64,000 bases of DNA, from the NCBI GenBank assembly GCA_938015525.1, contig CALLPC010000005.1, positions 1 through 64,000 on the forward strand, in the 5' to 3' direction. The DNA is from an uncultured Dehalococcoidia bacterium. GTDB lineage: Bacteria; Chloroflexota; Dehalococcoidia; Tepidiformales; Tepidiformaceae. A model generated the notes under the pieces. The model made no database searches and was not told the DNA's origin. It saw only the letters and a program-made list of their open reading frames with translations. The translations under genes were made by a program, and so were the position numbers. Numbering within the stretch: position 1 is the first letter of the stretch; each line of letters opens with the position of its first letter. Positions 14,712-20,908 of this stretch are shown piece by piece.

Positions 14712-14883
14712 GCCCGCCAACCCTCCCCGGGCCAGTCTCCCCCAGAGTGTGCACCCGAAACCGTCTACGGTGGACGAACGAAATTCCCCGTAACCTTCCC
14801 CATTGGTAGGATTCGGCCGGCTTCCGTGCACCGGTGCGCACCAGTCGCGCTGCACAGCCGGACACACTCAACCGGGGGACGAC

Positions 14884-16950
<2,067 letters not shown>

Positions 16951-16974
16951 GCCGCGCCCGCGGGTGCACATCGC

Positions 16975-17004
16975 GGCCGCCGGTTGAGCACCGGCGGCCG
17001 TTTT
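16975..17004 (+). terminator. Rho-independent terminator after hppA
   Basis: GCGGCCGCCGGT-tgagc-ACCGGCGGCCG followed by TTTTC. Confidence 0.8.
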
Positions 17005-17049
17005 CTCTATCCTGCGGCCCCCGGGCATCCCCGGCGGAGGCCCCCGTCC

Positions 17050-18939
17050 ATGTTCCTCGCCCAGCTCCTCGTTCCCGTCGCCGTCGTCATCGGCGTCGCT
17101 GCCGCCCTCGTCAGCCGCTTCGCCGCGCGTGACCGTTCGGTTCCGCCGCCGCCCTCGCCCCGGCCCGGGCTCCTCGCCCTCGCCGCGGCACTGGTCGGGG
17201 CCGGCGTCCTCGGGACCGTCGCCATCGCCCTCTACACCGGGGGCTACGCCGGCTCGCTCGAGCGGGCGGCCTGGGCCGGCGGGGGGTTCCTCGCCGGGTT
17301 TGCCGCGGCGGCGGCCGCGGCCATCCTGGCCCTGGCCCTCGATACCGACGACGGGCGGCCTGCAGCCGCCGGGCCGCTCACCGGCGTCAGCCTCGTCCTC
17401 GGGGCAGCAGCCGGCGTGTACGCCCTGGCCGCCGGCCCCGCGGGCGAAGGCCCCTGGGCGGCCGCCTCCCTCGTCGCCCCGCTCGCGGCCGGCGCCGGTC
17501 TCGCGGCCGTTCTCGGCGTGCTCATCCCGCCGCCCGGGCCCCGGCAGCCCGGCGCAGGGCCGGCTGCCGCCATCGCCGCCGCTGCGGTCACCGCTGGGCC
17601 ACTCGCCGGCGGCGAAGCGGCCGCGCTCGCGCGGGAGGCCGCCTGGACGGCGTTCCCCTTCGCCGTCCTCGCCGCGGCCATCGCCGGGAGCGCCGTCGCC
17701 CTCATCCCCGGCACCGTCATGGCGGCGGCAGGCCGCCCCTGGGCCGGCACCGCGGCGGCCGTCCTCGCCGCGGCCGTCACCATCCTCGCCGCCGCCGGGG
17801 CGGCGGTCGTCCTCCTCCCCGGCGGGTGGGGCTGGAGCGCCGGGGCCGCCGCTGCCGGGGCTGTCGGCGGGCTCGCCCTCGCCGGGCTCAGCGGGCTTCG
17901 CCCGGCGCGCCCGGGGACGCTCGCCGGCGCCATGCTCGCCTGGGCCCTCGCAGCGGCTGCGGCGCTCGCGGCCTGGTTCCTCGCCCGTGAACTGGTCGGC
18001 CAGGGATTCCCCCCCGCCGCGGGCGGCGTGTACGGCCTCGCGCTCGCCGCCGCTACCGCGCTCGGTCCCATCACCGCGTCCGCCTCCCTCGCACCGCTGG
18101 CGCCCCGGCAGGAGGAGCTCCAGGCGGGCGGGGACGACGCCGGCCGCTGGGCGCCCCCGTGGGCCGAACCCCAGCCGGACCCGCGCCCCGCGGCGGGCGA
18201 GCCTGCCCCGCAGCCCCATCCCGCCGCCGCGCTCGCCGGCGCCGGGGTCCTGGCAGCGCTCGCCCTCGCCCTCGCGCTCGGGGCCCACGCCCGCCACGAA
18301 CTCCTCCGGCTCGCGGCGGCCGACCCGGTCCGCTACGCCGAGGCCGTGCAGGGGCTCGGCCTCATCCCGCCGGGCGGCCCCGGGAGGTACGCCCTCGCCA
18401 ACGACGCCCGGGCCCACCGCGAACGCCTCGAAGAGCTCCGCGCCGCCATCGCCAGCGACGCCGATTTCGGGCCCGCCGACGTCCGCCTCCTGCTCGGCGC
18501 CGACGCCGCCGCCCGCGATGCCTTCGTCGCGGCCCGCCTCGAAGCCGGACGGCTCCTCACCGGCGAAACCGCCGCCATCGCCCCCGCCCGCCACCCCCTC
18601 CCCAGCCTCCTCCCCCTCCCCGCCACCGCGGGGACCCTGCTCGGGGTGCTGCTCGGCTTCGCCGCCCTGGCCGCCGCATCCTCAGCCTTCGACCGGCCCG
18701 GGCGGGCCTGGGCCCTCGTTGCCGGGGCCCTCGCCGTCCCGGCTGCGCTCCTCGGGGCGGTGCCCGCCCTCCGATTCCTCGGCCCGGGCGAGGCCGATGC
18801 CCTCGCCCTCCTCGCGGCCTTCGCGCTCATCGCAGGGCCCGGCGCCGGCCTCCTTGCCGTCCGCCAGCCGGGCGCGGCCGCGGCAGGCCCGGCAGCTGCC
18901 GCCCTCGCGGCCGGGCTCGTCGCGGGCGTGCTCGCCTGA
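17050..18939 (+). CDS. Ala-rich polytopic membrane protein; probable degenerate membrane-pyrophosphatase paralogue
   Basis: 629 aa, many predicted TM segments; collinear residual similarity to the adjacent hppA (see findings). Confidence 0.6.
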   Translation: MFLAQLLVPVAVVIGVAAALVSRFAARDRSVPPPPSPRPGLLALAAALVGAGVLGTVAIALYTGGYAGSLERAAWAGGGFLAGFAAAAAAAILALALDTDDGRPAAAGPLTGVSLVLGAAAGVYALAAGPAGEGPWAAASLVAPLAAGAGLAAVLGVLIPPPGPRQPGAGPAAAIAAAAVTAGPLAGGEAAALAREAAWTAFPFAVLAAAIAGSAVALIPGTVMAAAGRPWAGTAAAVLAAAVTILAAAGAAVVLLPGGWGWSAGAAAAGAVGGLALAGLSGLRPARPGTLAGAMLAWALAAAAALAAWFLARELVGQGFPPAAGGVYGLALAAATALGPITASASLAPLAPRQEELQAGGDDAGRWAPPWAEPQPDPRPAAGEPAPQPHPAAALAGAGVLAALALALALGAHARHELLRLAAADPVRYAEAVQGLGLIPPGGPGRYALANDARAHRERLEELRAAIASDADFGPADVRLLLGADAAARDAFVAARLEAGRLLTGETAAIAPARHPLPSLLPLPATAGTLLGVLLGFAALAAASSAFDRPGRAWALVAGALAVPAALLGAVPALRFLGPGEADALALLAAFALIAGPGAGLLAVRQPGAAAAGPAAAALAAGLVAGVLA

Positions 18940-18998
18940 GCGGCCGGGGGAATTCGCCGACCAGGCGGTAAATTTGTGACGAAAAGCGCAAAGACCCC

Positions 18999-19027
18999 TT
19001 GACAGCCTCCCGGCACATTGATAGCTT
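18999..19027 (+). promoter_or_regulatory. candidate sigma-70 promoter for the c-di-AMP riboswitch
   Basis: TTGACA, 17-nt spacer, TAGCTT. Confidence 0.55.
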
Positions 19028-19054
19028 CCGGCGAGTGAACGACGTTCGCGTCGT

Positions 19055-19205
19055 TTGCATGCGCGTTCGGTTCTTGCACCACCTGCCTAGTGCGCCGTTG
19101 CGGCGCAGCGGGGGACCCACTACCCCGGGGCGAACGCGGCCAGCCGGCCGCCAGGGCGCCTTCCGCCCGAGCCCGTCAGCTAACCCCGTCGGCAGTCTGG
19201 AAGGC
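19055..19205 (+). ncRNA. cyclic di-AMP riboswitch (ydaO/yuaA)
   Basis: Signature blocks gcGCGGGGGACCCA-like (agcgggggacccac), GGGGCGAAC, and CCGAGCCCGTCAGCTAACCCCGTCGGCA. Confidence 0.88.
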
Positions 19206-19298
19206 CTGGCGAGCAGGTAGCTCGTTTCGAGGTCTTTTTTTCTGTCCTCGAAGGTCACCATAACGGCTCTTTAACGAAAGGAAGAGGAGGGAATCGTC

Positions 19299-19517
19299 AT
19301 GCCAGCTCTACAGGAAGCACCGCCGAAGTCCTGCCCCAAGTGCCGCGGCTCGATCATCGTCGAGCGCGACTGGCACGGCACCTACGGCAGCTGCATCATG
19401 TGCGGCTACGTCCACGAAGTGCTCACCAGCCCGCCCGTCGACCTCGCCGCCGAGGAAGCCGCCCTGCCCCAGCGGCAGCGCCGCCGCCAGCCTTCGCACG
19501 GCAAGCTCCGGCTCTGA
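19299..19517 (+). CDS. 72-aa zinc-ribbon protein (CPKC...CIMC)
   Basis: Good SD (ggaagaggaggg), two CxxC knuckles, basic C-terminal tail RQRRRQPSHGKLRL. Confidence 0.75.
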   Translation: MPALQEAPPKSCPKCRGSIIVERDWHGTYGSCIMCGYVHEVLTSPPVDLAAEEAALPQRQRRRQPSHGKLRL

Positions 19518-19545
19518 CCAGCAGCCGGGCCAGCGGCCCCCAACC

Positions 19546-19578
19546 GGGACCCCCGCCCGCGCGGGGGTCCCGCCTTTT
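19546..19578 (+). terminator. Rho-independent terminator after the zinc-ribbon gene
   Basis: GGGACCCCCGCccgcGCGGGGGTCCC then gccTTTT. Confidence 0.88.
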
Positions 19579-19632
19579 CGCCAGCTCCGCCGCGCCCTAG
19601 AATTCGCGCTCCGGAGGTAGCAGAGCACACCC

Positions 19633-19920
19633 ATGCCGTACGTTCGCCTGTCGATCATGAAACCCCGCCGGGGCGAAGACGCCCGCTGCGAAGAACTCCT
19701 GCGCAAGCTCGACGAAGCCGCCGCCGCCCACGGCGGCGTCCAGGTCCACTACCTCATGCGCCCGAGCGACGAGAGCGGCGAAATCGCCCGCCTCGCGGTC
19801 TACGATTCCGAGGACGCTGCCGAGCGCGCCGCCAACGACACGCACATCATGGCCCTCCGCTCCGAAATCCACCTCCTCGTCGAGCCGGGCCACACCGAGC
19901 GCGCCTTCTTCACCATCTGA
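19633..19920 (+). CDS. small dimeric alpha-beta barrel (ABM-like) protein
   Basis: MPYVRLSIMKPRRGEDARCEELLRKLDE ... ABM-like length and pattern. Confidence 0.55.
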   Translation: MPYVRLSIMKPRRGEDARCEELLRKLDEAAAAHGGVQVHYLMRPSDESGEIARLAVYDSEDAAERAANDTHIMALRSEIHLLVEPGHTERAFFTI

Positions 19921-20131
19921 CCCGGGCCGCGGCCCCCGCGGGATTTCCCCGATCTCCCTGCGCGGCTCCCCCGACCACCGGGGGTTCTTCGGCGAGGATC
20001 AGGGTTTTCTCCGATACGCCCCCGCGAGGCAGTCCCTAGACTCCTCCCTGTCGCCGGGTTCCCTAAGCGGGCAACCCCAACGGCTCGGCACCTCCCCGCC
20101 GCTGCCGGAGACTACCTGAGGAGTTCGACCT

Positions 20132-20908
20132 GTGAACCAACTGCGCCCCCAGCCCCGGACCTTCCCGGCCCGCCCGACGAACGGCCCGGCCCGCGCCCCG
20201 GCGCCCATCCGCATCCTCCTCGTCGATGACCACGCCGTCATCCGCCAGGCCCTCCGGATGCTCCTCGAGGCGCAGCCCGAACTCGAAGTCGTCGCCGACG
20301 TCGAAAACGGGCGCGAAGCCGTCCAGGCCGTCGAACGCCTCCAGCCCGACGTCGTCCTCATGGACGTCGTGATGCCCGGCCTCAACGGGCTCGAGGCTAC
20401 CCGCCAGATTCGCCGCATCGCCCCTTCCACCCGCGTCGTCATGCTCAGCGGCTTCGTCGATGAGGACCAGCTGCTCGACGCCATCCGTTCCGGCGCTTCC
20501 GGCTACATCATCAAAAAATCCGACGTCTCCGAACTCGTCCTCGCCATCCAGACCGTCCACCGCGGCAACAGCTACTTCTCGAGCGCCCTCTCCGAAGGGT
20601 TCGACCTCGCCGAGGTCCTCTACCAGGCCAAGCGCACCGACCAGCGCAACGGCATGGATACCCTCACCAGCCGCGAGCGCGAAGTCCTCCAGCTCATCGC
20701 GGAGGGGTACACCAACCAGGGCATCGCCAACGAACTCTACATCTCCGTCAAGACGGTCGAAGCCCACAAGGCCCACATCATGGCCAAGCTCCACGCCCGC
20801 AACCGCACCGACCTGATCCGCTACGCCATCCGCAAAGGCATCGTCCGCCTCGAAAGCGTCGACGAGGCCCAGGCCATGCTCGACGACGCCGAGGCCGCCG
20901 CCGGCTGA
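20132..20908 (+). CDS. NarL/LuxR-family response regulator
   Basis: REC: ILLVDDHAVIRQALRMLL, DVVLMDVVMPGLNGLEATRQI; HTH: LTSREREVLQLIAEGYTNQGIANELYISVKTVEAHKAHIMAKL. Confidence 0.95.
   Translation: MNQLRPQPRTFPARPTNGPARAPAPIRILLVDDHAVIRQALRMLLEAQPELEVVADVENGREAVQAVERLQPDVVLMDVVMPGLNGLEATRQIRRIAPSTRVVMLSGFVDEDQLLDAIRSGASGYIIKKSDVSELVLAIQTVHRGNSYFSSALSEGFDLAEVLYQAKRTDQRNGMDTLTSREREVLQLIAEGYTNQGIANELYISVKTVEAHKAHIMAKLHARNRTDLIRYAIRKGIVRLESVDEAQAMLDDAEAAAG

Follow-up and report, generated by a model that had tools for sequence, protein, structure and literature searches.

A c-di-AMP riboswitch (RF00379) upstream of ZR1, a conserved small zinc-ribbon protein of Dehalococcoidia

We analysed a 64,000-nt stretch of contig CALLPC010000005.1 from an uncultured bacterium of the family Tepidiformaceae (hereafter, the window). 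In it, a promoter, a c-di-AMP riboswitch aptamer and the gene of a 72-aa zinc-ribbon protein, which we call ZR1, follow one another on the forward strand. The locus comprises the following features, given in window coordinates:

18969-18979, + strand: A+T-rich element TAAATTTGTGA immediately before the promoter, kept in most of the 34 Tepidiformaceae loci
18999-19027, + strand: promoter with -35 TTGACA (18999-19004), 17-nt spacer and extended -10 TGATAGCTT (19019-19027), based on conservation across 34 Tepidiformaceae loci
19038-19055, + strand: hairpin AACGACG-TTCG-CGTCGTT in the 5′ leader, ahead of the aptamer, from sequence and paired in the predicted fold
19074-19209, + strand: c-di-AMP riboswitch aptamer, RF00379
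19158-19165, + strand: pseudoknot loop strand GCCUUCCG, pairing with 19198-19205, with covariation across loci
19198-19205, + strand: UGGAAGGC, tail strand of the pseudoknot and also part of hairpin H1, from covariation and predicted fold
19199-19241, + strand: terminator-like hairpin H1 with a 7-T tract (19235-19241), probable expression platform (predicted fold, -19.1 kcal/mol)
19226-19252, + strand: alternative hairpin H2, UUCGAGG/CCUCGAA, predicted to fold when pairing of the pseudoknot tail is blocked
19284-19292, + strand: Shine-Dalgarno sequence GAGGAGGGA, pairing with UCCUC in the H1 state
19299-19517, + strand: ZR1, 72-aa zinc-ribbon protein with C-terminal tail QRRRQPSHGKLRL, from orthologs and codon-level selection
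19545-19578, + strand: hairpin CGGGACCCCCGC-CCGC-GCGGGGGTCCCG followed by a short T tract, probable terminator, partly conserved
19633-19920, + strand: ABM-domain protein, 95 aa (PF03992, 23.7 bits, cut-off 23.1), conserved neighbour
20132-20908, + strand: NarL/LuxR-type response regulator (PF00072 and PF00196), conserved neighbour

The sequence-only reading of this DNA had placed a TTGACA promoter at the head of the unit, and comparison with relatives bears this out. The hexamer is exact in 33 of 34 Tepidiformaceae relatives and reads TTGACG in the remaining one, and a conserved extended -10, TGnTAGCTT, lies 17 nt downstream of it. A scan of 18700-20200 for promoter and terminator consensus sequences called nothing. 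The promoter escaped it because its -10 hexamer, TAGCTT, diverges strongly from TATAAT; conservation was used to define it instead. Judged in this way, the promoter is real. Between promoter and aptamer, relatives carry different hairpins at the place of the window's leader hairpin. Just 5′ of the aptamer, the motif GCGYUCGGU (19062-19070) is strongly conserved in Tepidiformaceae. Further upstream, the interval 14803-18939 holds an H+-pyrophosphatase gene (PF03030, 892 bits) as well as a 651-aa membrane-like ORF without a Pfam match; the H+-pyrophosphatase lies close to ZR1 in about half of the Tepidiformaceae loci.

The open reading frame of the CxxC...CxxC protein, also recognised in the sequence-only reading, is a real gene that is selected at the protein level, as indicated by its pattern of codon changes. 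Comparison with 34 relatives gave 794 synonymous against 90 non-synonymous changes, and the differences at codon positions 1, 2 and 3 numbered 105, 8 and 840. In the last 13 residues, 146 synonymous changes stand against a single non-synonymous one. The same reading had called the protein an orphan, which does not hold: ZR1 is a class-wide family, present in 36 of 38 Tepidiformaceae genomes (82-100% identity, 17 of 18 genera) and, as full-length orthologs at a cut of our own choice (E <= 1e-18), in 132 of 344 Dehalococcoidia genomes. Each Tepidiformaceae genome has a single copy, apart from one with two, and the protein is 100% identical in Tepidiforma flava and a Tepidiforma MAG, which places the host in or near Tepidiforma. 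When 85,462 species were scanned with one genome per species, the titles of the 80 best ZR1 loci named either unnamed bacteria or groups of Chloroflexota. Among 399 Chloroflexota genomes searched with a profile, there was no full-length match outside Dehalococcoidia, and there was no match in phage and plasmid collections.

Across 27 diverse ZR1 sequences, C12, C15, C32 and C35 are invariant, and so is the tail RRRQPSHG...L. The pattern PSHGKLxL occurs once per genome in five genomes of the window's genus, in ZR1 only. Among the Tepidiformaceae loci, the median identity of ZR1 is 97%, compared with 85% for the response regulator, 78% for the H+-pyrophosphatase and 57% for the ABM protein.

In the AlphaFold model of ZR1, which is of moderate confidence (pLDDT 73, pTM 0.43), a zinc ribbon is joined by one short helix, and the tail is unstructured. 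Two CxxC knuckles with four invariant cysteines and three modelled strands agree with the zinc-ribbon fold, so we describe ZR1 as a predicted zinc ribbon. Searches of Pfam and NCBIfam with the 72-aa protein gave no family over its curated cut-off: the TFIIB zinc ribbon PF08271 reached 18.6 bits (cut-off 29), the RPB9 zinc ribbon PF02150 14.3 bits (cut-off 25.2) and the LysW-like PF21344 13.8 bits (cut-off 27). Foldseek against the PDB gave no hit at E <= 0.001, its matches being weak zinc ribbons throughout, and a PDB search with the tail region gave no match.

By both profile and fold, the best matches, all weak and non-significant, are the zinc ribbons of RNA polymerase (RPB9/RPC10, TFIIB, TFS). 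Compared with these, ZR1 has no second ribbon and no cyclin or catalytic region, and its tail is unrelated. LysW is likewise a small zinc-ribbon protein with a conserved C-terminus (3wwl, E 0.54); it is acidic and ends in an acceptor Glu, whereas the ZR1 tail is basic and ends in KLRL. ZifS (TTHA0897) of Thermus thermophilus, a stand-alone bacterial small zinc protein, is a weak fold match (E 0.35, 23% identity). The ribbon pattern is shared, at a similar size, by other Chloroflexota zinc ribbons of 55-76 aa (CPxCxGD...CLQCG), which often have basic C-termini, some of them AT-hook-like (KPGRPRK), but lack the QRRRQPSHGKLRL tail; the aptamer anchor was searched for upstream of these and not found. 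A near-invariant basic tail on so small a ribbon suggests that ZR1 docks on one conserved partner. That this partner is a conserved machine or nucleic acid bound through the basic tail is a possibility which we put somewhat below even chances.

The segment preceding the gene had been read as containing ydaO/yuaA signature blocks, and the Rfam covariance model agrees: positions 19074-19209 (+) match RF00379 over its full length (model 1-134) with 66.1 bits and an E value of 4.2e-13, the gathering score being 38 bits. The alignment contains two non-standard pairs and the window aptamer scores below most of its sister sites, as might be expected of a chance match or a decayed element within a GC-rich leader. 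We give this explanation a negligible probability, given that the score is 28 bits over the cut-off, that sites at orthologous genes reach up to 105 bits, and that the aptamer core is kept across Tepidiformaceae; it is rejected on score and conservation. The window's own genome encodes c-di-AMP synthesis, with a DAC domain (PF02457, E 3.1e-43) at G000:C21:52559-52909. By its aptamer, the window RNA belongs to RF00379, and it differs in its target. As RF00379 targets, PMC9960051 names transporters for Bacillales and Clostridia and, for Actinobacteria, genes of the cell wall.

The aptamer and ZR1 are found together well beyond the window. RF00379 stands directly upstream of ZR1 in 32 of 34 Tepidiformaceae loci (counted by the aptamer anchor GCTAACC[CT]CG upstream of ZR1, which cmscan confirmed in all seven loci checked) and, with 52-105 bits, in 32 of 40 further ZR1 loci sampled from 14 other families of Dehalococcoidia. 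This survey upholds the pairing seen in the window. Among the 132 genomes with ZR1, 131 have RF00379 and 124 a DAC gene, and all three are absent from 188 of the 344 Dehalococcoidia genomes; this co-occurrence is inflated by shared ancestry, and Fisher values serve as description only. In ten genomes the sole RF00379 found is the switch of ZR1 itself, a count that comes from a survey with stricter filters and includes some incomplete genomes.

Ten of the 74 loci have ZR1 without RF00379 at the gene (L075, L078, L092, L093, L105-L108, L114 and L131: four in family f18, two in f46, two single cases and two in Tepidiformaceae), and the job of ZR1 therefore does not strictly need the riboswitch. 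L114 and L131 keep the ZR1 promoter and have lost the aptamer, with another leader sequence in its place. The f18 loci (L105-L108) belong to genomes which, themselves or through f18 relatives, have one RF00379 elsewhere. Cobalamin/AdoCbl riboswitches were seen within a few kb of ZR1 at L078, L083, L088, L089, L109, L110 and L111.

The retention of ZR1 at switch-less loci, together with the promoter kept at two of them, would fit a constitutive housekeeping protein for which the riboswitch is just one of several interchangeable controls. We regard this as unlikely: RF00379 is retained somewhere in nearly all genomes with ZR1, most of them have DAC, and it is at ZR1 alone that the ten single-switch genomes retain RF00379. 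Very probably, RF00379 controls ZR1 and the locus is a genuine c-di-AMP riboswitch unit with predicted ligand binding. At the level of sequence, promoter, aptamer, terminator-capable leader, reading frame and terminator stem stay linked across many Dehalococcoidia families.

At the downstream end, the sequence-only reading had seen a strong terminator and a monocistronic unit, and each claim stands in part. The stem at 19545-19572 is very stable (-28.8 kcal/mol in the predicted fold), but its T tract has only four bases and it is absent from the list of the terminator scanner. The ABM-domain gene begins 115 nt past the ZR1 stop codon in a conserved order, ZR1, ABM protein, response regulator, with the ABM gene at 31 and the regulator at 27 of 74 ZR1 loci. 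On balance, the ZR1 transcript is likely monocistronic and the ABM gene probably a separate transcription unit. The recurring order could also mean that the zinc ribbon serves as a leader or marker ORF, the true target, reached by read-through, being the ABM gene or the response regulator. This we consider highly improbable, because the stable hairpin stands between ZR1 and these neighbours, ZR1 is conserved far above either of them, and it is retained at loci which have neither gene. The gene order is the only contextual clue to the role of ZR1.

The aptamer sits in the 5′ leader, 89 nt before the start codon, with H1 and its T tract, which the sequence-only reading had not mentioned, as the probable platform. 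The loop/tail pseudoknot lies downstream of P1, as the RF00379 architecture requires, and the same strand pair, CUCCUUCG/CGAAGGAG, is present in the printed sequence of the crystallised ydaO RNA (PMC5393176). With the outer stem removed, loop and tail gave a pairing score of 7.05 against 6.05 +/- 0.15 when tails were swapped (56 unique pairs); with the outer stem left free to pair, there was no contrast. In the predicted folds, a free pseudoknot tail allows H1 to form, and the UCCUC following it (19245-19249) pairs with the Shine-Dalgarno sequence. When the tail is held unpaired, H1 is lost and H2, which competes with H1 and hides this anti-Shine-Dalgarno element, accounts for about half of the ensemble. 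General pairing between the tail and the downstream leader showed a weak difference (5.47 observed, 5.16 +/- 0.10 swapped). Among 66 unique ZR1 leaders in which the pseudoknot can be recognised, 20 have a T-run; it is missing from most f24 leaders, which may act on translation. In addition, within 19205-19224 the overlapping pairings CCU/AGG and CGAGC/GCUCG appear by eye to covary between relatives (CCA..UGG in L134), and they could form either a tiny pseudoknot or a pair of hairpins that exclude each other.

Since some bases serve in both the pseudoknot tail and the terminator stem, a stabilised pseudoknot should block H1. The ligand-bound pseudoknot would in this way free the ribosome-binding site, making an ON switch, and c-di-AMP binding would set the amount of full-length, translatable ZR1 mRNA. 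It is thus weakly suggested that c-di-AMP turns ZR1 ON, a direction that we hold to be only slightly better than even because the argument is one of folding and because PMC9960051 gives OFF behaviour for the switches that it describes as measured. These include the B. subtilis switch, which terminates upon c-di-AMP binding, and the nlpC switch of C. glutamicum (RSnlpC). The same RF00379-ZR1 unit could work in this classical manner, c-di-AMP promoting termination at H1 and ZR1 being made at low c-di-AMP (low K+ or low osmolarity), and the H1 hairpin with its T tract in the window leader would suit it. We judge this a serious possibility that falls just short of even: the pseudoknot tail, which in the solved RNA belongs to the ligand-bound fold, here also serves as the 5′ strand of H1, so that the two are mutually exclusive, and no separate antiterminator was found in the window leader.

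The ZR1 switch shares with ydaO/yuaA (kimA) an aptamer over the cut-off, a loop/tail pseudoknot and a terminator-like hairpin after it, and differs from it by its small zinc-ribbon target and in that its predicted direction may be ON. RSnlpC, as described in PMC9960051, is of the same aptamer class, also outside Firmicutes, and its action close to the ribosome-binding site may be shared by the many ZR1 leaders that lack a T-run; unlike the ZR1 switch, it controls a cell-wall peptidase and was measured as OFF.

ZR1 had been taken for the only target of the switch, and this has to be corrected, as five other copies of RF00379 are present in the window's genome (G000), six sites in all. These five precede a second small zinc ribbon (ZR2), an unknown 160-aa protein, a sulfate-permease/STAS transporter, and an MFS-like and a glycosyltransferase-like protein that both score below cut-off. 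ZR2 (58 aa, ending TPEWRYG) is preceded by RF00379 at L007, G000:C17:12395-12568 (-). It belongs to a family of 57-61 aa ending in PEWR[YF]G, unrelated to ZR1 and found in 21 genomes, all of them Tepidiformaceae; by coordinate comparison, it lies just behind an RF00379 site in 21 of 21. In G052, an f16 genome without ZR1, the only RF00379 found (L251, on G052:C30) precedes a third zinc ribbon of 60 aa, MWWPKLCPYCGGDLY...RGRRR, about 118 nt past the aptamer. RF00379 sites in G058 and G061 precede longer CxxC proteins.

A small zinc ORF carrying a Shine-Dalgarno sequence is present at 15 of the 36 non-ZR1 sites (in 12 of these it is ZR2), compared with none of 4000 positions picked at random in this window; the sites are related and not randomly drawn, and the control is one GC-rich window, so these figures describe the rarity of the pattern and are not a test of enrichment. 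Small zinc-ribbon proteins thus appear, from such genomic arrangements, to be a recurrent c-di-AMP riboswitch output in Dehalococcoidia. At two other sites (L254 in G042 and L257 in G102), RF00379 stands before ORFs that seem to resemble trehalose-6-phosphate synthase, a plausible osmolyte target.

As a mechanism, ZR1 might be a dose-controlled adaptor whose ribbon and basic tail dock on RNA polymerase, the ribosome or nucleic acid; once docked, it would adjust gene expression upon a change in K+ or osmolarity. A broader proposal is offered tentatively, since all of its parts holding together is rather unlikely. It states that a main c-di-AMP genetic output in Dehalococcoidia would be the dosage of several independent small zinc-ribbon adaptors (ZR1 class-wide, ZR2 in Tepidiformaceae, the third in f16) and not transport or the cell wall, that the ZR1 tail docks on a core machine, and that c-di-AMP turns the ZR1 switch ON by way of a pseudoknot competing with the terminator.

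We found no report of a zinc-ribbon output of a c-di-AMP riboswitch in a search that covered a minority of the subscription literature, which is no proof of novelty; a Tepidiforma genome paper (PMC10284905) does not mention c-di-AMP or riboswitches. Neither Pfam nor NCBIfam has a model for the ZR1 family, and its leader, if ON, may be an uncommon version of the RF00379 switch class. c-di-AMP riboswitches have been linked with the transport of ions and osmolytes and with enzymes of the cell wall. That the most constant target of the switch is a small protein, near-invariant and spread through the class, suggests that c-di-AMP signalling has a further arm, and the RF00379-ZR1 pair points to an output beyond the known genes for ion transport and the cell wall.
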